A stretch of DNA of 64,000 nucleotides. Source: Lachnospiraceae bacterium. GTDB taxonomy: Bacteria; Bacillota; Clostridia; Lachnospirales; Lachnospiraceae. A model generated the notes under the pieces. The model was given only the letters and a program-made list of their open reading frames with translations. It was not told where the DNA came from and did not search any database. The position numbers were made by a program, and so were the translations under genes. Shown piece after piece: positions 26,904 through 62,021 of the stretch. The first letter of the stretch is position 1. Each line of letters begins with the position of its first letter. The stretch lies in contig JAFYAS010000060.1 in NCBI GenBank assembly GCA_017540605.1, positions 1 to 64,000 of the forward strand. The letters are read 5' to 3'.

Positions 26904-26932
26904 ATGATAGCACAGTATAAAGGGTTTGACAA
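26904..26932 (-). promoter_or_regulatory. Promoter of the Abi RNA and gene
   Basis: On the minus strand TTGTCA (26932-26927) and TATCAT (26909-26904) are separated by exactly 17 bp. Transcription would start near 26897, at the head of the structured RNA. Confidence 0.7.
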
Positions 26933-43394: not shown

Positions 43395-43449
43395 AACTTG
43401 ACTGTGCGACTTGCAGGATTAAATGAGGTTTTCGAGGAGGTTGATATTA

Positions 43450-44445
43450 TTGTCAAAGGGCGAAAATCAGAAGCTTAAGCTTCTTTATCTGTTGGATATA
43501 TTGAATGAATATACAGATGATGAACACAACATCACAATGCAGGAGATAGTAAAGAGACTCTCTGATTGTGGTGTGAATGCCGAGAGGAAGGCTCTCTATA
43601 ACGATTTGGAGGAACTTCGGACATATGGGATTGATGTTATAGGGGAAAAGGATGGTTTAGGTTATAATTATCATATAGGTAATCGAAAATTTGAACTTGC
43701 GGAGTTGAAGCTGCTTGTAGATGCCGTGCAATCATCTAGATTTATCACGAAAGCAAAGTCTAAAGAATTGATAAAAAAGATTAACGGCTTGACGAGTAAA
43801 TACCATGCCGATGAGTTAAACCATCAGGTATATGTGGCAGGACGAGTCAAAACTATGAATGAGAGTATCTATTATAATGTCGATCTGATTCACACAGCTA
43901 TTTCCGCAGATGTAAAGATCAGGTTCAAATATTATATGTGGAACGAGAATAAAAAGCAGGTTTATAGACGGAACGGGGATTACTATAGTGTTTCACCGTG
44001 GGGATTGACATGGGATGATGAGAATTACTATCTTATCGGATACGACGATGAGTATAAGGCTATCCGATATTACCGGGTTGATAAAATGAAGAAGATACTC
44101 CTGTCTGACGAGAAGAGAGAGGGTAAGGGAAACTTTAAGTCAGTGGATATGGCTGTATATTCAAAAAAGAGATTTGGAATGTTTGATGGTGAAGAGATAG
44201 AGGTAGAGTTGCTCTGTGATAATGATATGGCAGGGGTTATAATAGACAGATTTGGAAGAAACACTCCATTTGTGAGACAAGACGAAGGACACTTTATTGC
44301 TCTTGTATCTGTGGCTGTCAGCATACAGTTTTTGGGATGGGTGATGTCACTGGGAGATGGTGTGAAGATTGTTGGACCGGATAGAGTGGTAGAGCAGATG
44401 CAGGATGAGGTTAGAAGACTTAATAAAGCTTATTTAGATGATTAA
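43450..44445 (+). CDS. WYL-domain transcriptional regulator
   Basis: The 331-residue protein has an N-terminal helix-turn-helix (KLLYLLDILNEYTDDEHNIT, then RKALYNDLEELRTYGID) and a WYL-type region (VSPWGLTWDDENYYLIGYDD, IRYYRVDKM). WYL regulators sense nucleic acid or nucleotide ligands and often control defence genes. I prefer the TTG start at 43450, since GAGGAGG lies nine bases before it; an ATG at 43423 has a poorer site. It stands just upstream of the phosphorothioation island and may regulate it. Confidence 0.85.
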   Translation: MSKGENQKLKLLYLLDILNEYTDDEHNITMQEIVKRLSDCGVNAERKALYNDLEELRTYGIDVIGEKDGLGYNYHIGNRKFELAELKLLVDAVQSSRFITKAKSKELIKKINGLTSKYHADELNHQVYVAGRVKTMNESIYYNVDLIHTAISADVKIRFKYYMWNENKKQVYRRNGDYYSVSPWGLTWDDENYYLIGYDDEYKAIRYYRVDKMKKILLSDEKREGKGNFKSVDMAVYSKKRFGMFDGEEIEVELLCDNDMAGVIIDRFGRNTPFVRQDEGHFIALVSVAVSIQFLGWVMSLGDGVKIVGPDRVVEQMQDEVRRLNKAYLDD

Positions 44446-44461
44446 GCATGTTTTTTGATAG

Positions 44462-44500
44462 AATCGTATTGGGCGTAAGGGCGCCTGATACGATTTTTTT
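44462..44500 (+). terminator. Terminator between WYL gene and Dnd island
   Basis: A 14-bp stem, AATCGTATTGGGCG / CGCCTGATACGATT with two wobbles, and a TAAGGG loop are followed by T7. It insulates the Dnd operon from upstream transcription. The remainder of 44501-44678 shows nothing recognisable. Confidence 0.85.
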
Positions 44501-44678: not shown

Positions 44679-44707
44679 TTGATAAAATGTTCCAAATATG
44701 ATATAAT
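44679..44707 (+). promoter_or_regulatory. Promoter of the Dnd restriction operon
   Basis: TTGATA (44679-44684) and TATAAT (44702-44707) are separated by 17 bp. Transcription would begin near 44714, fifty bases before the first gene of the island. Confidence 0.7.
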
Positions 44708-44763
44708 ATTATTTTGGATTATTGTATTCAAGTGGAATGTTTTGACGATATGAGGTGCTGTTT

Positions 44764-47388
44764 ATGACTATAGATAACGAAGTATTATATGAAAAATACA
44801 ATATAGATATCGAATTGTATAGAGGTATTCCTATAGACTTCAATGATCTTAGAATACGTACAGCGAATTGCCTAAAAAGAGCAGGTATTTTCGATTTAGA
44901 TAATCTATTGTCTATGTCGTATGACAAGCTATCTAGGATAAAAAGCCTTGGAATGTTAAGTTTAAATGATATTGAAACATATGTCAAGAAACTTGATTCA
45001 AAGGCTGAAGAATTGATAGAACAAATGGATATCTGTATAACATCCAAAATTAGGAGTCGAAGAGACTTGATTTATTCAGGAGAGTTTACAGAAGAACTTT
45101 ATGATGGAATTAGTGATTATGAGCAAAGAACTATAGATGAACTGAAGAGTGGATTCGAGCTTTTAGATCATGACTTGATTATTGCTTGTAGAGATAATCC
45201 TACATATGCATGTAACATTTCTGTTATGTTGAAGAGCTTTACTAAGCAGATAAAAAAGCATAAGGAACTGGACGAGTTATATGATTCTGTAAAAGGAAAG
45301 GTTAATAATCATCTTAAACCATATTTTGAAGTCTATCCTATGCGAGAGTCGTTAAGTGAAGAGTTTAAGATTTATTGTGAAGATGATAGTGTATTGCTTG
45401 GAACCTTATTTGATAAAGTGAAATCATCTGATATTTCGACACAGGAGAAGATAAAGTTTGTCAAGTGGACTTCTTATGATTTGAAAGAAGAGCTTACATC
45501 TTTTTTGGATGGGTTTTATGCACGTTCCTTGAATACAGAAAGAGTCCTTCATCTCAGAGCGAGAAAATGTACGCTGCAAGAGATAGGTGATGAATTAGGA
45601 ATTACAAGAGAGCGAGTTCGGCAGATTGAGAAAAAGGTTGTTCAGCCTTTTTGTAGATGGCAGAGGTATAAAAAATTTCTTCCCAGATTATCTGCTGAAT
45701 TTAATGGAGAAACTATACTTGAAGCTACAGAACTTCAAGAGTATTTTGGTGATACAACAGAGGTTTTGTTGTATTTATTGCAGTGTGCTGATGACGAGTT
45801 CTTTTCATATGATCGTGACACAGATACAGTAATAATTGTTGATGATGATATTACTGATTTTACTAGAGATTATGTAGAGAAAATGCCGGATGAATTAGAT
45901 GCAGCAATCATTGATGAATATAAAAACAAAGCGATAGATGAGTATGATATCCCTTTAGATATTTTTGAAAGAGAGATTGATAGGCAGTATAAGATTTCGG
46001 GTGCAATCTATCATAGAAAGAAGCTTTCTCTTGAGAAGATGTATCATATTGTTATGAAACGGTATTATCCTAATGGAATGAATGTATATGATGATACGGA
46101 GCTTGCACGCTTTCGATCTTTGGTAATTAATGAATTTGGAGATGTTTCACTTCCTGAGAAGAATAGGTCGATATCTGCTGCGATAGGAAGGACGTGTATA
46201 TTATGTGGGAGAGGTAAATATCGAGTAAAAGAAGATGTTACAATTCCTCACAAACTTGTGAAAGAGATTTGGGAATTCATAATGAAAAGTGATAGGAGGC
46301 TATTCTTTATGAATGAAATTTTCCTTGAGTTTGAAAAGGAACTCCGTGGTGAGGGGATAGATAATAGATTCTTCCTACAGGGTATTCTTCGTGAAGAATA
46401 TGAAAATGATCTTTTCTTTAGAAGGGATTATGTATCTAAGGATAGTGAAAATCTTTCAATGTATAGAGATATTCAGTTATTCATAAAGAAATCAGAATAT
46501 CCGGTTACAAAAGAACAAATTAGAGAAGCGTATCCTGGGATTACAGAAATAATGATTAGTATTGCTTTGGCTGATGATGACATAATCAACTTCTTTGGGT
46601 CATATATACATGGTACTAATCTTAATCTTTATGCAGATGATAAGAAATATATTGGTAATGTTGTTAGTGCAATCGTAAGTGATGGTATGCCTCATCATTG
46701 TGATGAGTTATTTTTAATAATGCAAAGTGGTAATCAGGATATGCTTAACAGGTTGGGGATTTTTTACCAATATAGTTTATTCAGTTTATTGCAGTATTTG
46801 TATAAAGATAAATACGAATTTGAAAGACCATATATTGCAGAAAAAGGTACTAATATAAATAAACCGATAGAGCTATTGCAAGAGTATGTATCAGCGAATG
46901 AAGTGTTTGAGATAACAGAGCTACAGGGATTAGCAAAAGAATATCATTATTTTGTTTATGATATTTTGAAATTCTTAAATGGGTGGAATGATACGCATTT
47001 ACTGATCAACAAAGATGAGATGGCGGCAATAGAATATATAGGTATTACATCGGATATTGCATATGAAGTCGAACAACAAATTCTTGAAGAAATAGATGAT
47101 AGTGCATTGATTACAAATTTAAAGTGTATATATAATTTGCCTTCTATATGCGTGCCGTGGAATGAATGGTTGATTTATAGTGTAATAAATAAGTGGGGAA
47201 AAGAACTGGAGGCTAACACAACATCAAATCAATTTAGATCATCATCCCCTGTTGTTTCCAGGATAGGAAGATTCAATAGGGAGGATTATGGAGACACTGA
47301 ATCTAGAGAAATGGTTCAGACAATAGATTTGAATGATATTGATGCTGTGGAGGATTATATAATGGAAGATTTTGATATTGAGTGGTGA
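44764..47388 (+). CDS. RNAP alpha-CTD/sigma-region-4-like protein
   Basis: The 874-residue protein is the first gene of the island. Residues 28-75 (RTANCLKRAGIFDLDNLLSM onward) resemble the helix-hairpin-helix of the RNA polymerase alpha C-terminal domain. Residues 257-300 (RKCTLQEIGDELGITRERVR, then QIEKKVV) match sigma-70 region 4 closely. The remaining 570 residues are unrecognised, with several winged-helix-like stretches. The ATG at 44764 is preferred because GAGG stands eight bases before it. It overlaps no other gene but directly precedes the helicase. It may recognise DNA for the restriction module rather than direct transcription. Confidence 0.6.
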   Translation: MTIDNEVLYEKYNIDIELYRGIPIDFNDLRIRTANCLKRAGIFDLDNLLSMSYDKLSRIKSLGMLSLNDIETYVKKLDSKAEELIEQMDICITSKIRSRRDLIYSGEFTEELYDGISDYEQRTIDELKSGFELLDHDLIIACRDNPTYACNISVMLKSFTKQIKKHKELDELYDSVKGKVNNHLKPYFEVYPMRESLSEEFKIYCEDDSVLLGTLFDKVKSSDISTQEKIKFVKWTSYDLKEELTSFLDGFYARSLNTERVLHLRARKCTLQEIGDELGITRERVRQIEKKVVQPFCRWQRYKKFLPRLSAEFNGETILEATELQEYFGDTTEVLLYLLQCADDEFFSYDRDTDTVIIVDDDITDFTRDYVEKMPDELDAAIIDEYKNKAIDEYDIPLDIFEREIDRQYKISGAIYHRKKLSLEKMYHIVMKRYYPNGMNVYDDTELARFRSLVINEFGDVSLPEKNRSISAAIGRTCILCGRGKYRVKEDVTIPHKLVKEIWEFIMKSDRRLFFMNEIFLEFEKELRGEGIDNRFFLQGILREEYENDLFFRRDYVSKDSENLSMYRDIQLFIKKSEYPVTKEQIREAYPGITEIMISIALADDDIINFFGSYIHGTNLNLYADDKKYIGNVVSAIVSDGMPHHCDELFLIMQSGNQDMLNRLGIFYQYSLFSLLQYLYKDKYEFERPYIAEKGTNINKPIELLQEYVSANEVFEITELQGLAKEYHYFVYDILKFLNGWNDTHLLINKDEMAAIEYIGITSDIAYEVEQQILEEIDDSALITNLKCIYNLPSICVPWNEWLIYSVINKWGKELEANTTSNQFRSSSPVVSRIGRFNREDYGDTESREMVQTIDLNDIDAVEDYIMEDFDIEW

Positions 47389-47393
47389 CGTGT

Positions 47394-49439
47394 ATGAATT
47401 ATAAAGATATAGATATAAAGAGAAGTTATATAAGTTGTGGAGAGGACGGTATAGCTGATGCTTTGATTGTACCGGCATTGAAATGTACGAATCATTATTA
47501 TAGAAGCGTTGGTTATTTTTCTTCGGGTGTATTTGATACTATTATGGATGGGATTCCTACATTTGTTAGGAATGGTGGTGACATTAAGATGATTGCTAGT
47601 CCCAAGCTGAATAACGAGGACATTGAGGCAATTAATCTTGGATATGAAGAAAAAGAGCGTGTTATTGGGAACGCATTTAGCAGAGAGTTCATAGAAGAAG
47701 TTGAGAATTTTGACGATTCAAGACTTGCGATGCTAGCAGAATTAATAGCTAGGGGGATATTAGATATAAGAATTGCAGTGACAAACACTCTTGGGGACTA
47801 TCATGATAAACTAGGAATTCTTGAAGATTTTGAGGGCAATAAAGTTGCCTTTTATGGTTCTGCGAATTCAAGTAAAAATGGGTATAGAGATAATTACGAT
47901 AAAATTCGTGTTGTGAAAAGCTGGATAGATGGACAGAAAGACAGTGTTGATGATGAAGTGGAAGAATTTGATTCATTGTGGAATGGTACGAACAAGTTTG
48001 TTGAAGTATATGAATATAAAGAGTCAGCAAGAAAGCATTTGCTTAAGGTTATGGAACGTAGGAGTACTTCAAAAAAGCAAGGCAATACGGGGATTAAGTT
48101 AAGAGATTATCAGGAAGAAGCGATTAAAGCGTGGGTTAATAATGATTACCATGGGTTCTACGTTATGGCTACAGGTACTGGTAAAACATGGACTGCGATA
48201 TATTCTGCAAAAAGGTTACTTGAAGAGCACTCTGCAACCGTAGTGATATGTGCCCCGTATAAGCACTTAGTGAAACAGTGGGCAGAAGATGTAAGAAAAG
48301 CATTTCCTGATGCTGTGCTTATAATGGTTTCGTCTGAGAATCCTTCATGGGACCAGAAGATAAGTCAGGCGATTATTAATAAAAGATATAATAAGGATGT
48401 TCAGATTATAATTATCTCAACAATAGTATCTTTTAATCTTGAGAGATTTACAAATGTTATAAGCAAAGATTCTTCGGATAAACTGTTGATTGTTGACGAA
48501 GCACATAGATTTACTAAAAGAAACGAGGATTTAAAATGTGATTACAAATATATGTTGGGATTGAGTGCTACACCATATAGCGGTCGAAGCGCAGCTTCCG
48601 GAAAGGAACTAATGAAGTATTTTGGTGGACAGGTGTTTGAGCTTCCTATAGAAGCAGCACTAGATAAGAAGTTTCTTGTTCCTTACTATTATAAACCGAT
48701 ATTTGTATATGCTACCGAAGAAGAGGAAGAACGATTCAGAAAGCAGTCGAGAATTATTGCTTCATATTTTAGAAACGGAAAGTGTATCGATCCTGAAAGC
48801 CTTGCAAAGACATTGAGAAATAGATTAAGGATTATTTCGATGGCACAAGCAAAGATTGATGGTATTGGTGATTTTGTTAATCAGATTGAGGAAAAAGACC
48901 ATGTAGTAGTTTATTGTGGAGATGGAAGACTATATGATGATACCGGAGAAGAAATAAGACATATCAGACAAGTAAAACGTGTTTTAAATGATATGGATTA
49001 TAAAGCGAGTCAGTTTACTGCACAAGAAAACATGACAGAAAGGATGGAACTGGTAGATGCTTTTAACAAAGGTGAGATATCTGCTTTGGCAGCCATTAGA
49101 TGTCTGGATGAAGGAATAAACATTCCATCAATAAGAAGCGCATTGATTCTTTCGAGTAATGATGATTACCGGGAATTTGTACAGAGAAGAGGACGTATTC
49201 TTAGGCTTTATAATGACAAAGAAAGTGCAGTTATTTATGATGTTGTTGTGCTACCGTCTGATGATATGACAGAATGGGCAAAGATTGAACTTAGGCGTTA
49301 TAGAGAATATGCTAAATTGTCTATAAACTATGATGAAACGATGGATGAGTTAGATAGTCTTTTGATACAATATGGTTTGTCAGAAGAAGACGTGGATGTA
49401 TACGACTATGAAGAAATGGAGGATGAGATTGATGAGTGA
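47394..49439 (+). CDS. Dnd-linked restriction protein: PLD nuclease plus SF2 helicase
   Basis: The 681-residue protein joins a phospholipase-D-type nuclease (YHDKLGIL, then FYGSANSSKNG, the His-Lys and Asn-Ser elements of an HKD site) to a superfamily 2 helicase. The helicase has MATGTGKTWTAIYSAKRLL, LLIVDEAHRF, LGLSATPYSGR and a C-terminal FVQRRGRILRLY. This matches the helicase-like family annotated as a restriction enzyme of DNA phosphorothioation systems. It likely cuts DNA lacking sulfur modification. The start at 47394 lies just after the previous stop. It is followed, with overlap, by a 55-residue gene. Confidence 0.8.
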   Translation: MNYKDIDIKRSYISCGEDGIADALIVPALKCTNHYYRSVGYFSSGVFDTIMDGIPTFVRNGGDIKMIASPKLNNEDIEAINLGYEEKERVIGNAFSREFIEEVENFDDSRLAMLAELIARGILDIRIAVTNTLGDYHDKLGILEDFEGNKVAFYGSANSSKNGYRDNYDKIRVVKSWIDGQKDSVDDEVEEFDSLWNGTNKFVEVYEYKESARKHLLKVMERRSTSKKQGNTGIKLRDYQEEAIKAWVNNDYHGFYVMATGTGKTWTAIYSAKRLLEEHSATVVICAPYKHLVKQWAEDVRKAFPDAVLIMVSSENPSWDQKISQAIINKRYNKDVQIIIISTIVSFNLERFTNVISKDSSDKLLIVDEAHRFTKRNEDLKCDYKYMLGLSATPYSGRSAASGKELMKYFGGQVFELPIEAALDKKFLVPYYYKPIFVYATEEEEERFRKQSRIIASYFRNGKCIDPESLAKTLRNRLRIISMAQAKIDGIGDFVNQIEEKDHVVVYCGDGRLYDDTGEEIRHIRQVKRVLNDMDYKASQFTAQENMTERMELVDAFNKGEISALAAIRCLDEGINIPSIRSALILSSNDDYREFVQRRGRILRLYNDKESAVIYDVVVLPSDDMTEWAKIELRRYREYAKLSINYDETMDELDSLLIQYGLSEEDVDVYDYEEMEDEIDE

Positions 49440-49599
49440 CGAACAGATTAAAGAACATATGATAGAGTTTATCAAAGAGAAAGAAAGAGATGTAGTAAAT
49501 GATAAACTTAGAGGTTCAAGCGGCGACAATAAATCTAAGTCGGATATAGTTAATTCGATTTTGTCTGAATTAGATAAGGAGGTGCCTGATGAGAATTAG
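49432..49599 (+). CDS. Small charged protein in the Dnd restriction operon
   Basis: The ATG at 49432 lies within the end of the helicase gene (8-base overlap), and the frame ends inside the next gene, giving 55 residues. The product is highly charged (EHMIEFIKEKERDVVNDKLR). No family is recognised. The overlaps on both sides argue that it is a real, translationally coupled component. Confidence 0.55.
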   Translation: MSDEQIKEHMIEFIKEKERDVVNDKLRGSSGDNKSKSDIVNSILSELDKEVPDEN

Positions 49600-51559
49600 T
49601 AAGATTGAGTTTGAAAATTTTAGGAATTTTAAAGGGCATGGAGAGATTAAATGCTCTACCGATGGGAAAGTAACCATTATTTATGGTAAAAATGGAGATG
49701 GCAAAACTACTTTGCACCAACTCTTTCAGTGGGTGTTTTATGGTGCTGTTCACTTTAACAAGACAACTTCAGATACTTTGTATAATTTGAGCTTTGAGAG
49801 TGAACAGGCGTATAATTCTACATTTCAAGTAATGGGTCGAATAGATTTTGATCACATGAATGAGAAATATTCTATTACTCGAACAATTACTTATCGCAAG
49901 GAATTAGATTCATCATCTATTATCAATGAAGAGTTGGAACTTAATCATTTGGATTTGGACGATAATTGGAAGAGAATTGATCGCCCGCAGGAGACCATAG
50001 AGAAGTTGCTTCCATCAGGATTATCAGAATACTTTTTCTTTGACGGAGAGAATATGATAGCAGATCTCAGAGTAAAGGGAAGAGATTCTGCAAAAAATCT
50101 TCGCAAGGCATTGTATTCTATTTTTGATTTAGATATTTTAGAGTCAGCGCTTGGACATATCGGAAATACTGACTTGAAAACTACAGTCCTTGGTAAGCTT
50201 TATTTGAGCAAAGGGACTATTACAAGTGGAAGTGACATTAATGCAACTAAGACAAATATAGAAAATGCGCAGAACAAGATTGAAGAATATGAGCGTATTA
50301 TTAGCGAAGATGAAGCAGAAAAGAATGCAAAAAAGGAATTAATCTCCAGTATTTCTGAGCAAATTGGTTCAACCAAATCAAAAGAAGAATATGAGAAAGA
50401 GCGAAGAGGATTGATTAAGCAGCGTGATGCATTTCTTTCTAATATTGATTCAGAGATGTCTCAGTTTGGCGATATGATAATAAGCGATTTTCCGCAACTT
50501 TTAATATCGAAAGCTGTAGAGGATGCAAAGAAACGTATTCATTTAAAGGTAGAAGACAGCAAACTTCCACAGGGACTTGATAAAAGACTCATTTTCTATC
50601 TTACGCGTTTGTCTACATCAAAGTGTATTTGCGGAAGGGACTTGACAGAGGAGCATAAGGAGCACATAAAGAGTTTTCTTGATATGATGCCACCAAACAA
50701 TTATGACAGTATGTATATTAATTTTTCTGCACAGGCTAAGCAATGGGGCAAGGGGTATAGCAGAGAAAAAATAGAAAGTTTTATCAAACGTGTTATAGAT
50801 AATCAAGAATATGCTAATTCGTGTGATGTAAAGATTAGAGAATTAGATGAAGATGAAAAGAACAGTAAAGATATAGAAGATCTTATTGTAGACAGGAAGA
50901 ATGCTGAGAATAGGGTTGCTGAACTTGAGGATGACTTAATCAGGGCAAACGGTGAACTTGATAAATATAAGATGTTCTTGAAAAAAGAAATGAAGAGGTT
51001 TGATAGTCTTACTGAGCAAACGAAAATTAATCAGGTAGCGAAGAGAAAAATTGATATCATGAATGCTGTTCGGGATTATTTTAAGGATTGCTTAGAGGAT
51101 GAATCGGAAAAATATAGTAAACTTCTTCAGGATAATATTCAGTCTCTTCTTAATATGATGCTTACAAGTAAGAGAACAGTATCAGTCAGCCCGCAATTTG
51201 CTGTAAGGGTAGTTGACAGTTATAAGGATGAGTCTAAGTCAGAGGGGCAATTTGCTGTAGTCTCATTTGCATATATTGGAGGAATATTAAAACTTGTTTC
51301 CGATGTTGAGAATCTTAGTGGCAAGGAATATCCTTTGGTTTTAGATGGTCCGTTTTCAAAATTGGATGCAGATCAAAGGCAGAATGTAATTGATTGCATA
51401 CCAAAGTTTGCACCACAGGTCATTCTCTTTTCTAAGGATAGTCTTCAGGACTATTTTGATGCCGATACTATAGGACGAGTTTATACAATACAGAGCAATG
51501 AAGAGAAGAACATTGCCTCGGTAAAGGAGGGATTTACATGGACTTCAGATCAGATGTAG
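49589..51559 (+). CDS. DndD-like SMC/Rad50-type ATPase (restriction module)
   Basis: The 656-residue protein is an SMC-like ATPase with Walker A IYGKNGDGKTT (31-41), a long coiled coil, a central Cys pair (KCICGRDL) in the place of a zinc hook, and Walker B YPLVLDGPFSKLDADQR. The stretch SGLSEYFFFDGENMIADL is nearly the same as SGLSNFFFFDGEKIAEL in the DndD encoded at 54786, so the two are paralogs. It overlaps both neighbours. In this operon it probably powers or positions the restriction machinery, not sulfur transfer. Confidence 0.75.
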   Translation: MRISKIEFENFRNFKGHGEIKCSTDGKVTIIYGKNGDGKTTLHQLFQWVFYGAVHFNKTTSDTLYNLSFESEQAYNSTFQVMGRIDFDHMNEKYSITRTITYRKELDSSSIINEELELNHLDLDDNWKRIDRPQETIEKLLPSGLSEYFFFDGENMIADLRVKGRDSAKNLRKALYSIFDLDILESALGHIGNTDLKTTVLGKLYLSKGTITSGSDINATKTNIENAQNKIEEYERIISEDEAEKNAKKELISSISEQIGSTKSKEEYEKERRGLIKQRDAFLSNIDSEMSQFGDMIISDFPQLLISKAVEDAKKRIHLKVEDSKLPQGLDKRLIFYLTRLSTSKCICGRDLTEEHKEHIKSFLDMMPPNNYDSMYINFSAQAKQWGKGYSREKIESFIKRVIDNQEYANSCDVKIRELDEDEKNSKDIEDLIVDRKNAENRVAELEDDLIRANGELDKYKMFLKKEMKRFDSLTEQTKINQVAKRKIDIMNAVRDYFKDCLEDESEKYSKLLQDNIQSLLNMMLTSKRTVSVSPQFAVRVVDSYKDESKSEGQFAVVSFAYIGGILKLVSDVENLSGKEYPLVLDGPFSKLDADQRQNVIDCIPKFAPQVILFSKDSLQDYFDADTIGRVYTIQSNEEKNIASVKEGFTWTSDQM

Positions 51560-52071
51560 TTTTAAAGGGAGCTGCGTGGGATAATACAATCAAGGATTTA
51601 GGTAAAATTTTTAATACACGAACTAATTTTAGCATATATTTATTAGCCATGTCGATTGGTATTATGTATGATCAACGAATAGATAAGCTTGACGAGACTG
51701 AAGAGAGCGAACCTCATAATGTACCAAGAACTGTTTTGTCTTCTCAAAATATGGATGGTAGAATAGATTTTATGTTTCAGGCAGCAATTCTGACATCGCA
51801 GACTATTGATTTTAATGAGGATAAACGTTTACAACTTGCTTTTGGAGACAATGATGATAGTTTTAAGAAAATGGAGTTTCTAACAGAGTTTGCTAATTTT
51901 GGTGCTACCAAGTTAGCAGAGAAAATTGGCACATCAAATCTTGAGTCAATGGAAAATATAAAGAATTTTCTTGTTAGTACATTAGAAGGTAGAAACTTCG
52001 ATATAGACGCTCTATCTGAGGAAGATTTACTGGATGATTGGATGCCAGATTTCACAGGTGAATTAAACTAA
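51538..52071 (+). CDS. DndE-like protein (restriction module)
   Basis: The 177-residue protein starts at ATG 51538 after AAAGGAGGGA, inside the end of the DndD-like gene. Its N-terminus (WDNTIKDLGKIFNTRTNFSI, then YLLAMSIGIMYDQ) follows the DndE pattern of a helix, Lys/Thr turn and a second helix, but it lacks the strongly basic surface of the DndE at 56720. The order DndD-like then DndE-like mirrors dndD-dndE. The relation to DndE is weak by sequence and is partly inferred from position. Confidence 0.5.
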   Translation: MDFRSDVVLKGAAWDNTIKDLGKIFNTRTNFSIYLLAMSIGIMYDQRIDKLDETEESEPHNVPRTVLSSQNMDGRIDFMFQAAILTSQTIDFNEDKRLQLAFGDNDDSFKKMEFLTEFANFGATKLAEKIGTSNLESMENIKNFLVSTLEGRNFDIDALSEEDLLDDWMPDFTGELN

Positions 52072-52088
52072 TGATTGACATATGAATC

Positions 52089-52134
52089 AAAAAGCGATAT
52101 ACTTAAGTAGACTACTTAAGTATATCGCTTTTTT
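52089..52134 (+). terminator. Perfect 22-bp hairpin between restriction and modification genes
   Basis: Positions 52089-52110 and 52112-52133 are perfect inverted repeats of 22 bp around a single base; the arm centre is GATATACTTAAGTAG and the 3' end is a T6 run. It lies 12 bases before the dndB start and 17 bases after the previous stop. It should terminate transcription efficiently from the + side, and its A-tract would serve the other strand too. It could also be a protein binding site. Confidence 0.85.
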
Positions 52135-52144
52135 GGAGGGTATT

Positions 52145-53209
52145 ATGGATTTTGTATATAAATTTCCTGTTGTTAAGGGTATTCAGGCTGATAGAGTGTA
52201 CTATATAGCAATGGTACCTCTGAAGATGCTTTCCAGACTATTTCCGGGAGAAGATGAATATGTTCCGCCGGAGTATAGAGCACAGAGAAGATTAAATGAG
52301 AGCAGAATACCTGTAATCAGCAAGTATATATTAGAGAATAGAAAGAACTATGTTTTTTCGGCGCTGGCTGCTTCGATTGATGGTGAGTTTGAGTTCAAGG
52401 CAGGAGATGTATCTGGAGAAGTAGGGGTACTTGAGGTGTCTATGGATGCCCGTTTCCTTCTTAATGACGGACAGCATAGGAAGGCGGCAATCATTGATGC
52501 TTTAAGAGAAGATGATACTTTAGGAGAAGAAACAATATCTGTAGTATTTTATGAAGACAAGGGTCTATCAAGAAGTCAACAGATATTCACTGACTTAAAT
52601 AAGCACGCAGTAAAAACCTCTAATTCGATATCAGAATTATATGATTCGAGGGACCCGCTTGCTGTAATGACCAGAAAAGTAATATCCAATATTGAATTTT
52701 TTGATAGGTATACAGATAAAGAGAAAGATAATCTAGGTAAATATGCTTCTAACCTCTTTACGCTCAATACATTCTATAATGCAAACAAAAGAATGATTGG
52801 GAAGAAGAAAGTTGACGATGAAACGGAGCGGTTTGCTACTATGTATTGGAAGTGCGTCGCAAGCTATGTGAAACCGTGGTTTGAATTATCTACGTCTCAG
52901 ATTACCAAGTTGGATCTGAGAGAGAAATATATTGTGACACAGGGTGTTGTGATTAAGGCGTTTGGGCAGATTGGTAAAATATTCTATGATGATAAAAAAC
53001 TTGATATGAATGGTAAGTTACAAGGACTTATGGATATTAATTGGAGAAGAAACGCATCTATTTGGATTAAAAGAGCTATACGCCCTGATGGAAGAATGAT
53101 TGCAAATGAGAAAGCGGTTAGATTGATCGCAAATTGTATTAAAGAGCAACTCGGAATTCCACTTGATGAAGATGATATGCAAATAGAGAGTGATTTTAAG
53201 AATAATTAA
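52145..53209 (+). CDS. dndB: DndB, regulator of DNA phosphorothioation
   Basis: The 354-residue protein carries the DGQHR motif that names the DGQHR domain (LLNDGQHRKAAI, residues 106-116). DndB is a regulator that limits the level or placement of phosphorothioate modification and can act as a transcriptional repressor. I start it at ATG 52145 after GGAGGG; the longer frame from 52082 would translate through a perfect hairpin terminator. dndC follows after 15 bases. Confidence 0.88.
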   Translation: MDFVYKFPVVKGIQADRVYYIAMVPLKMLSRLFPGEDEYVPPEYRAQRRLNESRIPVISKYILENRKNYVFSALAASIDGEFEFKAGDVSGEVGVLEVSMDARFLLNDGQHRKAAIIDALREDDTLGEETISVVFYEDKGLSRSQQIFTDLNKHAVKTSNSISELYDSRDPLAVMTRKVISNIEFFDRYTDKEKDNLGKYASNLFTLNTFYNANKRMIGKKKVDDETERFATMYWKCVASYVKPWFELSTSQITKLDLREKYIVTQGVVIKAFGQIGKIFYDDKKLDMNGKLQGLMDINWRRNASIWIKRAIRPDGRMIANEKAVRLIANCIKEQLGIPLDEDDMQIESDFKNN

Positions 53210-53224
53210 CTGGAGGATTGTTTG

Positions 53225-54796
53225 ATGGCTGTTGCTGGAAAGACCACAATAAATAAAGATATTATAGAAGGAATGATGGAAACTGTTCGTAACCTATATT
53301 TAGCGGATGATATACCGTGGGTTATAGGATATTCAGGCGGAAAGGACAGCACAGCAACATTGCAGCTTGTGTGGTATTCACTTGAAAAGCTACCTCCAGA
53401 TCAGTTAAAGAAACCAGTTCATGTTATAAATACGGATACTTTAGTTGAGTCACCTGTAATCTCAAGATGGGCAAAAAAATCGCTTGAAGAGTTAGAGAAG
53501 ATGTCTGACGAAAAAGGAATGCCGTTTAAAACTCATATATTAAAACCTAAGACAGATAATACTTTTTGGGTTAACTTTTTAGGAAGAGGATATCCTTTCC
53601 CTAGAAAAAAACTGAGATGGTGTACAGATCGTTTGAAAATACAGCCTGTAAACAATTTTATTAAAGAGAAGATTGCAGAACATGGTGAGATTATATTAGT
53701 TATTGGGACACGAAAAGCAGAGAGCGCTAATCGAGCTAAAACTATGGCAAAATATGAGAAAATGAGGGTAAGAGAGTTGCTTAGTCCAAATCCAACTATG
53801 GCAAATGAATTAGTGTTTTCGCCACTTGAAGATTGGACTGATGATGATGTTTGGATTTATCTCATGCAATACAAGAATCCATGGGGATATTCAAATAAAG
53901 AATTAATGACAATATACAGAGGTGCTTCGGCGGATAATGAGTGTCCATTAATGGTTGCCAAGGATCTTCCTAGTTGTGGAAAGAGTAGATTTGGCTGTTG
54001 GGTATGCACAATGGTCGAACGTGACAAATCAATGGAAGCTATGATTGCCAACGATGATGAAAAAGCATGGATGTCCCCTCTTTTAGAGTTCCGCAACGAA
54101 TTTGGTGATGAGAGTAAAGACAGGGAACGTCGTAGTTTTAGAAAGATGAATGGTTCTTTACAGGGAAGCTATGAGCGCCTTCATCATGGACCGTATTTGA
54201 AAGAAATAAGGGATAAGTGGTTAGAGAGATTATTAACTATTCAAAAGGAATTAAATGATAACTGCCCCTCAGATTTTGACAGTATTGAATTGATTTCTGA
54301 TGACGAGTTAAGAGAAATCAGAAGAATATGGGTATTAGAGAAGCATGAGTTTGATGATTCTCTACCAAAGATTTACGAAAAAGTCTATGGAAGACCATTT
54401 AATGATCCTGATTGGATAGGGTCGCAACTGTTTGGGCAAGATGAGTGGGAATTGTTGAAGGAGATATGTAACGATCCTAAATATGCTAATGAAGAGCTTT
54501 TGTTTGAAATGATGTATAGTCTGATAGATGTAGAGAATCAATCTACTGGACTTGATCAGAAAAAAGGTTTGATAGATGATCTTACGAAAGTAGTAAAGAA
54601 GAATTTCTATGCAAATGAAGCAGATGCTACGAACTATTATGCGGAGCATACTAAAAGAAAAAAAGAATTCGGAGGAAACTATAATGAGAAATTCCTTGAG
54701 CCGGCAATGGTGAAAGAAGAGTCAAGTTATAGTGTTAATCCGGATGAGGATATTGATATTGCAATAGATGAAGAGGAAGATGACTATGATAATTAG
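53225..54796 (+). CDS. dndC: DndC, sulfurtransferase of DNA phosphorothioation
   Basis: The 523-residue protein has the ATP-pyrophosphatase loop YSGGKDSTATLQL (SGGKDST at 37-43) of the PAPS reductase-like family and Cys residues for an iron-sulfur cluster, including LRWCTDRLKIQP and CPLMVAKDLPSCGKSRFGC. DndC activates the DNA phosphate and inserts sulfur from DndA. The ATG at 53225 has TGGAGGA before it. It overlaps dndD, consistent with co-translation. All expected motifs are present. Confidence 0.92.
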   Translation: MAVAGKTTINKDIIEGMMETVRNLYLADDIPWVIGYSGGKDSTATLQLVWYSLEKLPPDQLKKPVHVINTDTLVESPVISRWAKKSLEELEKMSDEKGMPFKTHILKPKTDNTFWVNFLGRGYPFPRKKLRWCTDRLKIQPVNNFIKEKIAEHGEIILVIGTRKAESANRAKTMAKYEKMRVRELLSPNPTMANELVFSPLEDWTDDDVWIYLMQYKNPWGYSNKELMTIYRGASADNECPLMVAKDLPSCGKSRFGCWVCTMVERDKSMEAMIANDDEKAWMSPLLEFRNEFGDESKDRERRSFRKMNGSLQGSYERLHHGPYLKEIRDKWLERLLTIQKELNDNCPSDFDSIELISDDELREIRRIWVLEKHEFDDSLPKIYEKVYGRPFNDPDWIGSQLFGQDEWELLKEICNDPKYANEELLFEMMYSLIDVENQSTGLDQKKGLIDDLTKVVKKNFYANEADATNYYAEHTKRKKEFGGNYNEKFLEPAMVKEESSYSVNPDEDIDIAIDEEEDDYDN

Positions 54797-56723
54797 AAAG
54801 CTTGTGCTGCATAATTTTGGTATTTATGCAGGAACAAATGAGTTTACATTTGATGGAGATAAGAATGTTGTGTTAATTGGCGGTATGAATGGTCGAGGTA
54901 AGACAACAATATTAGAGGCTGTATTATTAGCGCTTTACGGAAGAAATTCCTTTGCATATACAGAGAGTAAATTTCAATCATATAGCCGATATCTTGATTC
55001 ATATGTTAATAAATCTGATAGAACCTGTTTGTCTTATGTAACACTTAATTTTGAAATGGATGGAAGTAGTTATATTGTTAAAAGAAGCTGGGAGGGTAAT
55101 AAAAGAAAGATTAGTGATAATACAGAAGTATGGCAGGATGGTAAGTCTAATGAGTTTTTAACCGAAAATTGGGTAATGTTTATGGAGAACCTTTTGCCAA
55201 GTGGATTATCGAATTTCTTTTTCTTTGACGGAGAAAAAATAGCAGAACTTGCAGCTGATAGTACAGATGAAAAACTTAAGGATTCAATTAAATCCCTTTT
55301 GGGAATTGAAGTATTGGAAAGTCTTGATAGAAATCTGTCTAAATTATTACGTAAAAGTGGTAAAGAAAAGGACAGAGTATTCAAGGAAGAGGTATCATTC
55401 GAATTAAAAAAGGCTAAAGAAGATGCAGAACAACAATTAAGAGATTTAGATGATAGGATACAGAGATTAGAAGATGAACTGGTTGTTGCTGACAAGAAGA
55501 TAGAGCAGACAAGGATTGAGTACACATCAAAGGGTGGCGATATTTTTGAAAAGAAGGAAGAATATTACAAAAAAAGGTCGGAATTAGCGGTAAAGCAATC
55601 ACAGCAAAAAGAGCAGCTCCTTGATACTGCAGCATCTGAATTGCCTCTTGTGCTTGTAAGAGACCTTCTTGAAGATGTGAAGAGTTCAGTAGAAAAGGAA
55701 CGAGAATCAAGGGAGAACAGTGTTGCGTTGAAGAAGATTCAGGAGTTTTATTCTTCTTACAAAGCTAATAATAATTCCGATGAACTTGTTGATTTCATTC
55801 AATATATGACTGATATAACTAACAAGTCGGATAATGATATGATTTACAATATGTCAGATTCTTCGTGGTTGCAGTTAGTACAATTATGTGAAGGAAGACT
55901 TGATAAGAGAATAGCTGATACTAATCACTTGTTTGAAGTGCGTGATGAAACTCAGCAGGAGATTGAGAGTACAGACAGTCTGCTTTCTGTAGAAATTGAT
56001 GAAGAGAAAATTGGAAAAATCTATAAAAAGATTATTAAATTAGAGCATGATAAGAGTAAGAAAGAAGTCGAGCTTGAGGAATGTAGAAGAGAAAGGCCAC
56101 ACTATAATAATGCGCAGATTAAGGCAACTACAGAATTTAATAGATATGTGGAGGGGATGCTGAAGAAATTAGAAACAAGTGATGATTATGATAGGATTGT
56201 CAAGTATTCTCATCTCGCTACAAATGTGCTTTCAGAATATAAAGTTAAGCTTCAGGAGAAGAAGATTGGGAAATTAGCAGATGCTATGACCCAATGTTAC
56301 AAGCAGCTTGCGAATAAAAAAGGGATGATTGTTCGTATAGAAATGGATCCGGTAAGCCTAGATTTAAAATATCTAAATGATAAGGAAGAGGAGATTCCTA
56401 AAGAACGACTCTCTGCAGGAGAAAAGCAACTTATGGTCGTATCTCTCTTATGGGCATTAGCAATATGTTCAAGTAGAAAATTACCTGTGATTATTGATAC
56501 TCCATTATCTAGACTTGATTCTAAACATAGAATGGCGTTGATTAAGACCTATTTTCCTAATGCTAGTGATCAGACAATCGTTTTATCTACGGATTCTGAA
56601 ATATATGGAAAGTATTACAATGCCTTAAAGAAAAATGTAGGAAATGAATATACACTTGATTACAATGATGAAACAAGAAGCACTACAATTTTGCCAGGAT
56701 ACAGATGGGAGGAAGAACAATGA
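54786..56723 (+). CDS. dndD: DndD, SMC-like ATPase of DNA phosphorothioation
   Basis: The 645-residue protein has Walker A GMNGRGKT (33-40), the family stretch SGLSNFFFFDGEKIAEL, a long coiled coil, signature LSAGEKQLMVVSLL and Walker B LPVIIDTPLSRLDSKHR. DndD is thought to open or move DNA so DndC can modify it. I use ATG 54786, which gives the usual N-terminus MIIRKLVLHNFGIYAG, after GAGGAAG. The gene overlaps dndC by 11 bases and dndE by 4. Confidence 0.92.
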   Translation: MIIRKLVLHNFGIYAGTNEFTFDGDKNVVLIGGMNGRGKTTILEAVLLALYGRNSFAYTESKFQSYSRYLDSYVNKSDRTCLSYVTLNFEMDGSSYIVKRSWEGNKRKISDNTEVWQDGKSNEFLTENWVMFMENLLPSGLSNFFFFDGEKIAELAADSTDEKLKDSIKSLLGIEVLESLDRNLSKLLRKSGKEKDRVFKEEVSFELKKAKEDAEQQLRDLDDRIQRLEDELVVADKKIEQTRIEYTSKGGDIFEKKEEYYKKRSELAVKQSQQKEQLLDTAASELPLVLVRDLLEDVKSSVEKERESRENSVALKKIQEFYSSYKANNNSDELVDFIQYMTDITNKSDNDMIYNMSDSSWLQLVQLCEGRLDKRIADTNHLFEVRDETQQEIESTDSLLSVEIDEEKIGKIYKKIIKLEHDKSKKEVELEECRRERPHYNNAQIKATTEFNRYVEGMLKKLETSDDYDRIVKYSHLATNVLSEYKVKLQEKKIGKLADAMTQCYKQLANKKGMIVRIEMDPVSLDLKYLNDKEEEIPKERLSAGEKQLMVVSLLWALAICSSRKLPVIIDTPLSRLDSKHRMALIKTYFPNASDQTIVLSTDSEIYGKYYNALKKNVGNEYTLDYNDETRSTTILPGYRWEEEQ

Positions 56724-57100
56724 TAATGAGACAGATTCGTTTATCAAATCGTGCAAAAGAGCGATTGTCAAGATTGAAAGGAAAGACTGGAATTAAGAAT
56801 TGGAATGTTCTCTGTAGATGGGCATATTGTTATTCTTTGAAAGAAAACACAATTCCTACACCTGAAAATATAGATGGCGACAGTAATGTAGAAATGTCTT
56901 GGTATACATTTGCCGGAGAATATAGTGAATTGTATGAGGCTTTAATTATAGCATGGTGTAAGAAGATGGATATTCCTACGGATAATGAGACTATGGCTAA
57001 ATACATTAAAATGCACATAGAAAGAGGAATATCATATTTGTCGGGAACCAATTTTATTAAGGAACTTGATGATTTGTTGAGATTAGGAGCAGCGAGATAA
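56720..57100 (+). CDS. dndE: DndE, DNA-binding subunit of phosphorothioation
   Basis: The 126-residue protein has the DndE pattern IRLSNRAKERLSRLKGKTGI, then NVLCRWAYCYSLKEN, and a basic surface suited to DNA binding. DndE joins DndC and DndD in the modification complex. ATG 56720 overlaps the dndD stop in an ATGA arrangement and has GGAGGAAG upstream. dndA begins at its own stop codon (TAATG). Confidence 0.9.
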   Translation: MIMRQIRLSNRAKERLSRLKGKTGIKNWNVLCRWAYCYSLKENTIPTPENIDGDSNVEMSWYTFAGEYSELYEALIIAWCKKMDIPTDNETMAKYIKMHIERGISYLSGTNFIKELDDLLRLGAAR

Positions 57101-58248
57101 TGAGTGTATATTTAGATTATAATGCTTCAGCACCAATTGATGATCGTGTTGTGGATTTTATGATGGATATTTACAAGAATAATATTGGGAATGCTGACAG
57201 TAGAACCCATGATTATGGTGATAACGCAAGAACTATTGTAGAAAATGCGAGAAAACAAGTTGCGTTATTGTTGGATATCCCTTCTGAGGATGTGTTCTTT
57301 ACCAGTGGAGCAACGGAGAGTAATAATATTGCTATACAGGGACTTAGGGAATATGCTGAAAAAACAGGTAAAAAGCATATTATTACCACAAGCATAGAAC
57401 ACAAAGCGGTGCTAGAAACTGCTAAGTATATGAGTGAAAATGGGTATAGAGTTGATTTTGTGTCACCCGATCATACTGGTCAAGTATCGGCTGACGAAAT
57501 AATTGATCTGGTTGCTGATGATACATTATTGGTATCCGTAATGCATGTGAATAATGAAACAGGAACAATTCAGCCTGTGAAAGAGATAGGGGATAGGCTT
57601 GCAGATAAAGATGTTTTGTTTCATATTGATGCAACGCAAAGCTGTGGTAAGCTTGTGGAGGAGATTAGACAAATTCAATATGATATGCTTTCTTTCAGTA
57701 GCCATAAGATGTATGGCCCTCAGGGAATAGGGGCATTGGTGTTGCGCAGAAAGAATTATAAGTTGCCACCGGTTAAGCCAATTATGTTTGGAGGACAGCA
57801 GGAACATGGAATTAGCCCGGGAACGATTCCGGTTGCGTTGGTTGGTGGATTAGGTAAAGCGTGTGAGATAGCGATTGATGAATATAAGGGTGATGAGGCA
57901 GATAATATATCAATCAGGGAAATGTTAATAGAAATGTTGGACAAATCAGGCGTTAAGTATATAATCAATGGAGATATTGATTATATAATATCGTCTACTT
58001 TAAATATTCAGATAGAAGGTGTTTCATCTGAAGCACTTATGTTGTCTAGTAAGCAGTATTGCGGAATCTCAAATGGTTCGGCATGTACATCAAGTAGCTA
58101 TTCGCCAAGCTATGTACTCGTGGCTATGGGAATGTCAGAAGATGAAATAGATCAATCAATTAGGTTGAGCTGGGGTAAGAATACAGATGCTGAAGAATTA
58201 AGAAAGAATTTCGGAAAACTATTGGAAGTAGCAAAGGAGCTTGTTTAG
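57100..58248 (+). CDS. dndA: DndA, cysteine desulfurase
   Basis: The 382-residue PLP enzyme takes sulfur from cysteine for DndC. The PLP lysine is Lys203 in SFSSHKMYGPQGIGAL, the conserved His is in TTSIEHKAVL, and the active Cys is Cys329 in GSACTSSSYSPS. The length and motifs match IscS/NifS enzymes. Having dndA at the 3' end of the operon, rather than divergent as in Streptomyces, is seen in other bacteria. It overlaps dndE by one base. Confidence 0.92.
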   Translation: MSVYLDYNASAPIDDRVVDFMMDIYKNNIGNADSRTHDYGDNARTIVENARKQVALLLDIPSEDVFFTSGATESNNIAIQGLREYAEKTGKKHIITTSIEHKAVLETAKYMSENGYRVDFVSPDHTGQVSADEIIDLVADDTLLVSVMHVNNETGTIQPVKEIGDRLADKDVLFHIDATQSCGKLVEEIRQIQYDMLSFSSHKMYGPQGIGALVLRRKNYKLPPVKPIMFGGQQEHGISPGTIPVALVGGLGKACEIAIDEYKGDEADNISIREMLIEMLDKSGVKYIINGDIDYIISSTLNIQIEGVSSEALMLSSKQYCGISNGSACTSSSYSPSYVLVAMGMSEDEIDQSIRLSWGKNTDAEELRKNFGKLLEVAKELV

Positions 58249-58277
58249 GCTACGCAATGTGTAAGTGGGCAAAATGA

Positions 58278-58400
58278 TTGCCCTATATTCTGATTGGGGA
58301 CGGGTTTAGTAAGAATGAGGTGAATGAGCTATAGGAGATTTTTAACGAAGCAGCAGGCGAAGAGAAAAAGACGGTAGAGTTATCTAAGGGTATAGGATAA
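58278..58400 (+). pseudogene. Possible decayed gene after dndA
   Basis: In one frame the bases read LPYILIGDGFSKNEVNEL, a stop, then EIFNEAAGEEKKTVELSKG before a final TAA. The run looks like coding sequence with at least one internal stop and no valid start. I cannot name the family, and it may be chance. Confidence 0.25.
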
Positions 58401-58439
58401 GTTTTGTTTACGTTATACCATAAGGAGGAGGTGAGTGAT

Positions 58440-58682
58440 TTGGGTAAATGTATACCAAACATGGATATGAAATTTGTTACTTGTCCTAAATGTGGCAAGT
58501 TAGTACAAAAATGCATTACAACAATGTCAGAACTTGTATGTCCGCACGATAATTGCAGATACAAGTTTGATGCGTTTGTTCGTGGAGATTTTGTAATGTA
58601 TTATAATCCAAATGATGGAGAATCCAAAGAACTTGCTTCCGTATTAATCGAAAGTGAAAGGTTTCCGGATATGATAGGATGA
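58440..58682 (+). CDS. Small zinc-ribbon protein
   Basis: The 80-residue frame has two Cys pairs, FVTCPKCGKLVQKC and VCPHDNC, which form a zinc ribbon. A TTG at 58440 is placed about ten bases after GGAGG; an in-frame GTG at 58431 is too close to it. It lies 22 bases ahead of the HNH nuclease gene and is probably its partner. The function is unknown. Confidence 0.55.
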   Translation: MGKCIPNMDMKFVTCPKCGKLVQKCITTMSELVCPHDNCRYKFDAFVRGDFVMYYNPNDGESKELASVLIESERFPDMIG

Positions 58683-58704
58683 AGTTTTGTAAGAGGAGAC
58701 ACTT

Positions 58705-59727
58705 ATGCCAGGATGGAATCTGAAAAATGGAGAATTGAATAATGTTAGAGTCAGCGAGGACGAATATTGGTCATTATTCAACTTCGTTTTTTCCGATGCA
58801 TGTATGAAACGCAATACATATAAGTTTGGGCTTATAAAGTCTATTATGGACAACTTGTTTAACTGTGTGTTTGAAGATAGAAGTGCGACATATGAACTGT
58901 CTTATGAAGATATATTTGAGAAGTTTACTATAAACTATTGGAATTTGGTATTAAGATATCACCTGAAACAGATGCGCAGAGATGGTCGTACTGAGATTTC
59001 AAAGATAGAATCTATCTTAATGCAGGCGGCAGAAGAAAATGATTTATTGGAGTCTCTCGATTATGAGGCATTGCCACTCGATGATAAAAAGAAGATTGTC
59101 AAGCAAGTGTCGGTCTCTTGTAGAAGAAATGTCATAGGTGCGTTATATGCTGATATGGATGGGAAACTATACGGCTTTGATTTGAAAAGTGATAGTATTG
59201 TCTTATCACCATATGCCTATGACTTCATGTTGAAATATAAATCAGAATTAGAAAAACTGAATTATTACGCTTGGGCTAAATTCATGGAAAAGATTAATAG
59301 TGATGATGTCTTGGTGCGAGTTTTGGATAAATTAGAATTAGCAACGCCTAAAAGAGATAATCTATCAATATATAGAGAAATCTTATATAAGGAATTTGAG
59401 GAGTGCAACTGCTTTTATTGTGGCAAAAAGCTTGAACATATCGGCAGGGGAATACATGTTGATCACTTTATTCCGTGGTCATATGTGAAAGATGATAAGC
59501 TGTGGAATTTTGTATTATCCTGTCCTAGATGTAACGAGAAGAAGAATAATAAAATACCAACGGAAATATATTTGGATATGATTCTTAAGAGAAATGAGAT
59601 AATCAGAAATAATATGGATGTGGTTGTTGAGATGGATTTTAGGAATTATGATTCAGAACAGCTTAAAAGGTTGTGGAAATATGCTCAATTAAGTGGATTG
59701 AAACAGTTTTCTACAGTGAGACCATGA
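58705..59727 (+). CDS. HNH endonuclease linked to the Dnd operon
   Basis: The 340-residue protein ends in an HNH nuclease. CNCFYCGKKL (Cys236, Cys239), HVDHFIPW (His251, Asp253, His254) and SCPRCNEKKNNK (Cys273, Cys276) give the complete metal and zinc sites. The first 230 residues are an unrecognised, mostly helical region that could recognise substrate. AAGAGGAG precedes the ATG. Location after dndA suggests a phosphorothioation-related restriction nuclease, either sensing unmodified DNA or cutting modified DNA. This assignment is from context. Confidence 0.8.
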   Translation: MPGWNLKNGELNNVRVSEDEYWSLFNFVFSDACMKRNTYKFGLIKSIMDNLFNCVFEDRSATYELSYEDIFEKFTINYWNLVLRYHLKQMRRDGRTEISKIESILMQAAEENDLLESLDYEALPLDDKKKIVKQVSVSCRRNVIGALYADMDGKLYGFDLKSDSIVLSPYAYDFMLKYKSELEKLNYYAWAKFMEKINSDDVLVRVLDKLELATPKRDNLSIYREILYKEFEECNCFYCGKKLEHIGRGIHVDHFIPWSYVKDDKLWNFVLSCPRCNEKKNNKIPTEIYLDMILKRNEIIRNNMDVVVEMDFRNYDSEQLKRLWKYAQLSGLKQFSTVRP

Positions 59728-61999: not shown

Positions 62000-62021
62000 G
62001 GGTGAGCACCGCTCACCCTTT
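62000..62021. terminator. Hairpin between secreted-protein and RT genes
   Basis: GGGTGAGC and GCTCACCC form a perfect 8-bp stem with an ACC loop between two convergent genes, overlapping the stop of the reverse transcriptase. T-tracts are short on both sides. Confidence 0.5.

Follow-up and report, generated by a model that had tools for sequence, protein, structure and literature searches.

A probable DNA-reading protein encoded at the head of a Dnd-PbeABCD operon on a Lachnospiraceae conjugative element

Phosphorothioate defences are known as combinations of modification enzymes and effectors. In the closest system described so far, according to the main text of Xiong et al. 2019 (PMC6459918), PbeABCD acting together with dndCDEA stops viruses from replicating, and no cleavage is visible. 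The main text of Rakesh et al. 2024 (PMC10853773) re-describes PbeABCD as a CxC ABC-ATPase/DndE/HKD-SF2 system (SF2, superfamily 2), argues that the HKD domain implies cleavage, and reports CxC-ABC-ATPase/HKD-SF2 systems without dnd genes too. A further described system, type 4 bacteriophage exclusion (BREX; brxP-brxC-pglZ-brxL), is phosphorothioate-based according to the type 4 section of a 2026 review (PMC12839542) and phosphorothioate-synthesising in the main text of PMC11931770. Here we analyse a stretch of 64,000 nucleotides from a gut bacterium of the Lachnospiraceae (assembly GCA_017540605.1, contig JAFYAS010000060.1, positions 1 to 64,000; "the window" below means this whole stretch), from a genome of 64 contigs and 2.85 Mb. 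It carries what is probably a Dnd and PbeABCD phosphorothioate defence operon on a Gram-positive conjugative element, with an additional 5' gene whose product, of 874 amino acids (aa), would be a DNA-reading subunit.

We show the architecture of this 874-aa protein and its family, how the family groups by system, and its repeated occurrence at Pbe-Dnd, BREX type 4 and PDC-M33 loci. The protein is most likely, in our view, a DNA-reading subunit that targets or gates the Pbe complex at promoter-like DNA.

The 874-aa protein

The operon lies on one strand, from 44764 to 58248, in the order 874-aa gene-pbeA-pbeB-pbeC-pbeD-dndB-dndC-dndD-dndE-dndA, as read from the list of open reading frames (ORFs). 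Overlaps or gaps between its genes do not exceed about 12 bp, or 61 bp if the shorter conserved start of dndB at 52133 is used, in agreement with the single functional unit proposed by an earlier reading of the window made without database searches (the sequence-only reading). The first gene and the parts of its product are as follows; HTH stands for helix-turn-helix and alpha-CTD for the C-terminal domain of the RNA polymerase alpha subunit.

44764 to 47388, plus strand: 874-aa protein with alpha-CTD, sigma-70 region 4 and tandem winged helices, opening the operon
44821 to 45003, plus strand: alpha-CTD-like domain, residues 20-80 (PDB alpha subunits, E 1.6e-06)
45496 to 45678, plus strand: sigma-70 region 4-like HTH, residues 245-305, with TRERVRQ at 281-287 (SigA, E 7e-08)
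45679 to 47043, plus strand: tandem winged-helix core, residues 306-760 (AlphaFold 2 (AF2) secondary structure, hhalign)

Pfam places RNA_pol_A_CTD at residues 23-74 and Sigma70_r4 at residues 267-293, which bears out the alpha-CTD/sigma-4-like character assigned to this protein in the sequence-only reading. In structural alignments the alpha-CTD part reaches Z 9.6 with a root-mean-square deviation of 1.7-1.9 A over 62-63 residues (VIA), and the sigma 4 part Z 7.0, with assorted winged helices also matched. Matches of the sigma-4 part include SigA region-4 entries 4g8x and 4g94, the latter a gp67 complex. The rest of the protein is predicted by AF2 to form about six tandem winged helices, with a mean predicted local distance difference test score (pLDDT) of 74 and a predicted template modelling score of 0.38, which makes the folds of the single domains usable, but not the way they are arranged. 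The model as a whole had no Foldseek match at E <= 0.001. No sigma region 2 and no enzymatic domain were found with Pfam, and a working sigma-70 factor was rejected as an identity for the protein, Sigma70_r4 being found alone and region 2 being absent.

The residues expected to read DNA are conserved. Their counterparts in the alpha-CTD and sigma 4.2 of RNA polymerase make contact with the UP-element and with -35 DNA. Eight proteins (alignment A1) share without exception R32, the equivalent of alpha R265, and the sigma 4.2 recognition-helix residues T281, R282, E283, R284, R286 and Q287; across 14 homologs T281, R284 and Q287 are still invariant. The protein is large, probably DNA-reading and apparently undescribed; we found no account of it in descriptions of these systems in open-access main texts.

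The 874-aa gene also evolves faster than its neighbours. Comparing the window with the relatives L001 and L003, its ratio of nonsynonymous to synonymous substitution rates (dN/dS) is 0.10-0.13, against 0.02-0.05 for pbeA, pbeC, dndC and dndD, and the fastest parts are the N-terminal linker and the alpha-CTD (0.18-0.33). In the same comparison pbeD is strongly diverged in L001, and the gene of an HNH nuclease 3' of the operon in both relatives. The faster rate fits changing selection, for example on target choice or sensing, and is compatible with it rather than proof of it.

Relatives of the protein beside three systems

Relatives were sought in a family sample of 397 genomes, 14 of which have PbeA at E <= 1e-60; locus L085 was taken from a sample of the order, and a separate scan supplied L001-L003. 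Metagenome assemblies probably make up many of the sampled genomes, and some contigs break off within the island. At most two candidates per genome were scored in the full-length family search, and some members may have escaped it; the search was also swamped by matches to the alpha-CTD of rpoA, and was rerun with the C-terminal core as query on samples of the order and the phylum.

Wherever PbeA is at least about 62% identical, at seven loci (the window, L001, L002, L003, L053, L054 and L085), a full-length homolog stands directly 5' of pbeA and in the same direction. Homologs also adjoin type 4 BREX genes: PADLOC identifies BrxP (1.2e-262) and BrxC (5.2e-135) in L083, and PglZ is found in L082 and L092. 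In a survey of BrxP in the family sample, the homolog, of 570-1140 aa, lies directly 5' of brxP at 9 of the 12 BREX-4 loci with full-length BrxP (L123, L125, L127, L128, L129, L131, L132, L133 and L092). Further BREX-4 homologs are adjacent in L083 and L088, and separated by one 238-aa ORF in L082. A third group occurs in four genomes 3' of PDC-M33A-B-C, a candidate defence system so far uncharacterised, where the homolog is the fourth gene.

Profile comparisons with hhalign (Pbe-type against BREX4-type, 1.6e-72 over 785 columns; Pbe-type against M33-type, 4.2e-47 over 562 columns) confirm that the three types of protein are homologous. The Pbe-type proteins form one side of a branch in a 26-sequence tree (support 96/98), as do the M33-type proteins (100/99), and the BREX4-type proteins occur in several places; the system labels require 5 changes, against 12.6 when shuffled. 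Since the homologs largely cluster by system, the family looks like an overlooked recurring component. The plasmid and phage collections searched yielded no homolog, and the IMG/VR matches were short and mostly across the sigma-4 segment. L085 (5945-9949) encodes a 1334-aa homolog whose N-terminus is extended and includes three alpha-CTD stretches.

The Pbe and Dnd genes and their surroundings

The remaining genes of the operon are listed below (HKD names the nuclease motif of the phospholipase D (PLD) family, and PAPS stands for phosphoadenosine phosphosulfate).

47394 to 49439, plus strand: PbeA, HKD(PLD)-family nuclease domain and SF2 helicase (PADLOC PbeA, 3.5e-197)
49432 to 49599, plus strand: PbeB, 55 aa, overlapping pbeA and pbeC (position, counterparts in relatives)
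49589 to 51559, plus strand: PbeC, CxC-clade ABC ATPase (PADLOC PbeC, 5e-80)
51538 to 52071, plus strand: PbeD by place and size, 177 aa, overlapping pbeC (same place in six relatives)
52082 to 53209, plus strand: DndB (TIGR03233, 9.5e-120, over the cut-off; relatives align from start 52133)
53222 to 54796, plus strand: DndC, PAPS-reductase-type sulfurtransferase with an SGGKDS motif (TIGR03183, 4.4e-183, over the cut-off)
54768 to 56723, plus strand: DndD ATPase (TIGR03185, 1.3e-136, over the cut-off)
56705 to 57100, plus strand: DndE (TIGR03184, 2.2e-36, over the cut-off)
57100 to 58248, plus strand: DndA cysteine desulfurase (best family TIGR03235, 4.6e-135, 450 bits, under the cut-off of 480)

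Genes 2-5 of the operon are, by their sequence matches and order, PbeABCD, and the module is already known because it was reported in PMC6459918 and PMC10853773. PbeA, whose ORF is also open from a GTG at 47382, contains the Pfam domains PLDc_2, ResIII and Helicase_C, the PLD-nuclease/SF2 helicase of the sequence-only reading, and it has one HKD motif (HDK..GSAN) and helicase GTGKT and DEAH motifs, all kept in 10 homologs. The proposed check against TIGR04095 gave a match (3.6e-111) with a score, 372 bits, under the cut-off of 600. The gene noted earlier for a 55-aa protein is pbeB, with counterparts of 65-76 aa, 40-50% identical, at the same place in L053, L054 and L085, in keeping with a PbeB that is small and quick to diverge. 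PbeC, with Walker A GKNGDGKT, has the hook CICG at residue 346, and CxCG is present in all 10 PbeC proteins checked; its match to TIGR03185, the DndD family (E 9.4e-29, under the cut-off), agrees with the earlier label of DndD-like ATPase. The CxC zinc hook sets this clade apart from DndD, and the DndD of the window itself has no CxC motif.

The fifth gene had been called DndE-like, and this kinship, which has been published for PbeD, was not reproduced here. Profile searches of Pfam, NCBIfam and PDB returned no family for the 177-aa protein, hhalign gave it a probability of 0.1% against DndE, and its AF2 model (pLDDT 54, low confidence) had no fold match in Foldseek; the gene may be taken as pbeD by place and size. 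Its identity to the window is 72% in L001 and 93% in L003, with neighbouring genes at about 93-95% in both, a pattern that suggests local recombination or specificity switching.

The modification half, dndBCDEA, is present as had been described, with DndB-E over the NCBIfam cut-offs and DndA, which lies within the operon and carries SSHK and GSAC (the motifs of the pyridoxal phosphate-binding lysine and the catalytic cysteine), below its own. As also stated earlier, the exclusion half is not DndFGH: the ORF list and the NCBIfam and Pfam profiles place no DndF, DndG or DndH among the ORFs of the window region. The dnd-associated families TIGR03237 and TIGR03238 had no match in the window's own genome, in a test run without a positive control.

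The operon is bounded by the following features.

43423 to 44445, plus strand: WYL/WCX-domain transcriptional regulator (Pfam WYL 1e-11, WCX 2.8e-09; HTH_11 weak)
44460 to 44497, plus strand: terminator-like hairpin closing the WYL unit (17 pairs, T tail)
44679 to 44707, plus strand: promoter-like TTGATA-17-TATAAT with TG ahead of the second hexamer (11 of 12 matches)
58267 to 58283, plus strand: terminator-like hairpin with a T-rich tail, 3' of dndA (hairpin search)
58461 to 58682, plus strand: zinc-ribbon-like protein, 73 aa, one CPKC pair (motif search)
58705 to 59727, plus strand: HNH nuclease, accessory, with C-terminal HNH (Pfam HNH_4, 4.7e-11)

The WYL/WCX protein is likely a regulator of the island; counterparts lie 5' of the same island in L001 (91% identity) and L003 (75%). 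The promoter-like site and its surroundings are kept, with changes, in an alignment of the relatives L001-L003, and the Shine-Dalgarno GAGGTG and the ATG at 44764 are kept in relatives. An HNH nuclease and a zinc ribbon do follow dndA, as reported before, with the hairpin at 58267-58283 intervening, so that the two genes may be a separate unit. Both occur beside the island in relatives. A homolog of the HNH nuclease lies 24 bp 3' of dndA in L146, others occur in L147 and L148 and in the loci L059 and L060 described below, and the nuclease is a frequent accessory of Pbe-Dnd islands. Its N-terminal part of about 215 aa has no family match, and the 73-aa protein, which is 70% identical to the product of a 76-aa gene near the island in L147, has no family over the cut-off in Pfam and NCBIfam profile searches.

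Genes elsewhere in the window fit the conjugative setting that had been proposed, with a TraG/VirB4-type P-loop gene at 21493-23925 and an NlpC/P60 gene at 23939-25849. Inside this conjugation region, on the opposite (minus) strand, lies an Abi_2 abortive-infection-like gene (25871-26932). The window also encodes a 1655-aa SpaA-repeat LPXTG surface protein (4403-9370), a 2421-aa protein with N6-methylase and SNF2/helicase domains (27540-34805), a sortase (34821-35429) and, on the minus strand, a group II intron reverse transcriptase/maturase-like ORF (62013-63887; TIGR04416, under the cut-off).

Other loci show further combinations. In L053 (genome G290) the alpha-CTD/sigma-4 gene and pbeABCD are followed by genes for a 333-aa protein containing part of a PAPS-reductase domain, a DndA-like desulfurase, an FRG-domain protein and an AIPR protein. 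This sulfur module is unusual, no dndBCDE lying in between. Seven loci (L059, L060, L061, L062, L063, L065 and L067) are hybrids in which SspD-like, SspB (DUF4007), SspC and SspA-like genes directly precede PbeA and genes at the PbeC and PbeD positions; SspB and SspC were assigned by PADLOC in L061, and the others by position and partial similarity. We found no description of this Ssp-Pbe pairing in the main texts on these systems that we consulted. At two of the hybrids the gene 3' of the PbeD position encodes an MzaA-like protein that has both sigma region 2 and sigma region 4 (L065, 11487-12647; L067, 5112-6173), and at the same place in L061 (291-3017) there is a 908-aa protein with two alpha-CTD domains and one sigma-4 domain. 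The N-terminal part of the latter alone aligned with the 874-aa protein, and it is therefore counted as an analogue and not as a full-length homolog.

Function and comparison with known systems

On homology, DndA and DndC would mobilise sulfur, DndCDE would place it on host DNA and DndB would limit the process. By extension from published work on homologs, PbeC and PbeD would scan DNA, and the helicase PbeA, which includes an HKD nuclease domain, would block or attack unmodified incoming DNA. The 874-aa protein is probably a non-catalytic subunit in which an alpha-CTD reader of UP-elements and a sigma 4 reader of the -35 element are mounted on winged helices; working in the defence complex, it would bring Pbe to promoter-like DNA or gate Pbe on it. 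That the family at large, with its promoter-reading modules, has been overlooked as a subunit common to two unrelated phosphorothioate systems, Pbe-Dnd and BREX type 4, and to PDC-M33, directing them to promoter-like DNA or guarding polymerase surfaces against phage takeover, is a tentative extension about which we are rather doubtful.

Several observations weigh against the reading of the 874-aa protein as a DNA-reading subunit of the Pbe complex. Loci whose PbeA is at most 51% identical have no full-length homolog of it. Most BREX-4 homologs have neither sigma 4 nor alpha-CTD, although some keep sigma 4 and one an alpha-CTD. The winged-helix core is consequently the common part of the family and the polymerase-like modules are restricted to lineages; promoter reading therefore cannot account for all that the family does. 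No sulfur enzyme is known for PDC-M33, and 4 of the 16 members that came from whole-genome searches are orphans whose neighbours are housekeeping or unrelated genes. The family is exclusive neither to defence nor to sulfur systems.

The main rival is that the 874-aa protein regulates the transcription of its own operon, and of BREX-4 operons, bound over the promoter and without a role in exclusion, a possibility that we take seriously and still think unlikely. It would suit a gene that comes first after a promoter-like site in Pbe loci, and first, before brxP, in BREX-4; the kept DNA-reading residues of sigma 4.2 and the alpha-CTD and the small number of orphans away from defence genes point the same way. 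It fits poorly with the separate WYL regulator already present upstream, with a size of 874-1334 aa and about six winged helices, which is large for a repressor, with the fourth position behind M33A-B-C in PDC-M33 loci, and with the several BREX-4 homologs that lack both promoter-reading domains. If the protein were a regulator alone, what is left of the finding would be a known system whose regulator is unusual. Phage proteins that take over the polymerase bring another option into view. Sigma region 4 is a binding target of T4 AsiA and of gp67 from phage G1, and alpha R265 is a residue that ADP-ribosyltransferases of T4 modify. The 874-aa protein might mimic these polymerase surfaces (alpha-CTD near R265, sigma 4) as a decoy or guard and release Pbe when touched; the invariant arginine in the eight proteins of alignment A1 and the matches to the two SigA region-4 entries would suit such a role, but DNA binding accounts for the same residues, the alpha-CTD is not universal in the family and nothing points to a fusion of sensing and effector parts. 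Of all the options a decoy that phage takeover proteins act on would be the most surprising, and in our view it is improbable.

It is similarly improbable that the gene just travels with the mobile island and is functionally unconnected to Pbe and Dnd. The presence of a full-length homolog in only 3 of the 14 PbeA genomes of the family sample speaks for such a passenger, but the gene is present at every one of the seven loci with the more similar PbeA, always adjacent and co-directional, the family clusters by system, and it recurs in two other defence systems. The sequence-only reading had itself seen in the five genes a distinct, previously undescribed restriction architecture for sulfur-modified DNA. 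The window does lack DndFGH, and the first gene lies outside the descriptions of PbeABCD found in the consulted texts; the claim nevertheless falls, because the other four genes are already described as PbeABCD (PMC6459918, PMC10853773), and we now regard it as very improbable. What survives of it is the alpha-CTD/sigma-4 gene, apparently undescribed and a conserved partner of the Pbe lineage. Under the preferred reading, that of a DNA-reading subunit, a family with the promoter-reading residues of polymerase, found beside two sulfur systems of different biochemistry and one uncharacterised candidate, offers a testable handle on targeting or triggering, and type 4 BREX may often have an unlisted component.

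Among known systems, DndFGH is the partner of dnd modification genes in many bacteria and is not in the window. MzaA, the sigma-like protein of the MZA system, shares with the 874-aa protein a sigma-4-like HTH (PADLOC, 2.9e-04), but the match covers about 75 residues at 17 bits (profile positions 584-661 of 683), and the MzaA NCBIfam-type model gives 26 bits against a cut-off of 800. PglW of BREX type 2, in the text of the review cited above (PMC12839542), has an alpha-CTD-like domain followed by several winged helices. The 874-aa protein likewise combines an alpha-CTD with winged helices, and the M33-type protein weakly matches PglW over the alpha-CTD; unlike PglW, the 874-aa protein has no kinase, NERD nuclease or iSTAND domain that we could find, and has a sigma-4 HTH instead. 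BREX type 4 resembles the window in having a homologous tandem winged-helix protein at the 5' side of brxP, a protein that the type 4 section of the same review does not list; it differs in its modification and effector genes, brxP, brxC and pglZ being absent from the window operon (PADLOC, NCBIfam). The nearest system is DndCDEA-PbeABCD of Haloterrigena jeotgali (PMC6459918), which in the main text has, like the window, the A-B-C-D order beside dnd modification genes, a PbeA with HKD and SF2 helicase domains, a small PbeB, a CxC-type PbeC and a small PbeD. Neither that text nor that of PMC10853773 mentions an alpha-CTD/sigma-4 protein as part of the Pbe module, and the window is set apart from the system described there by the 874-aa gene 5' of pbeA, by the presence of dndB, and by the HNH and zinc-ribbon genes at its 3' side.

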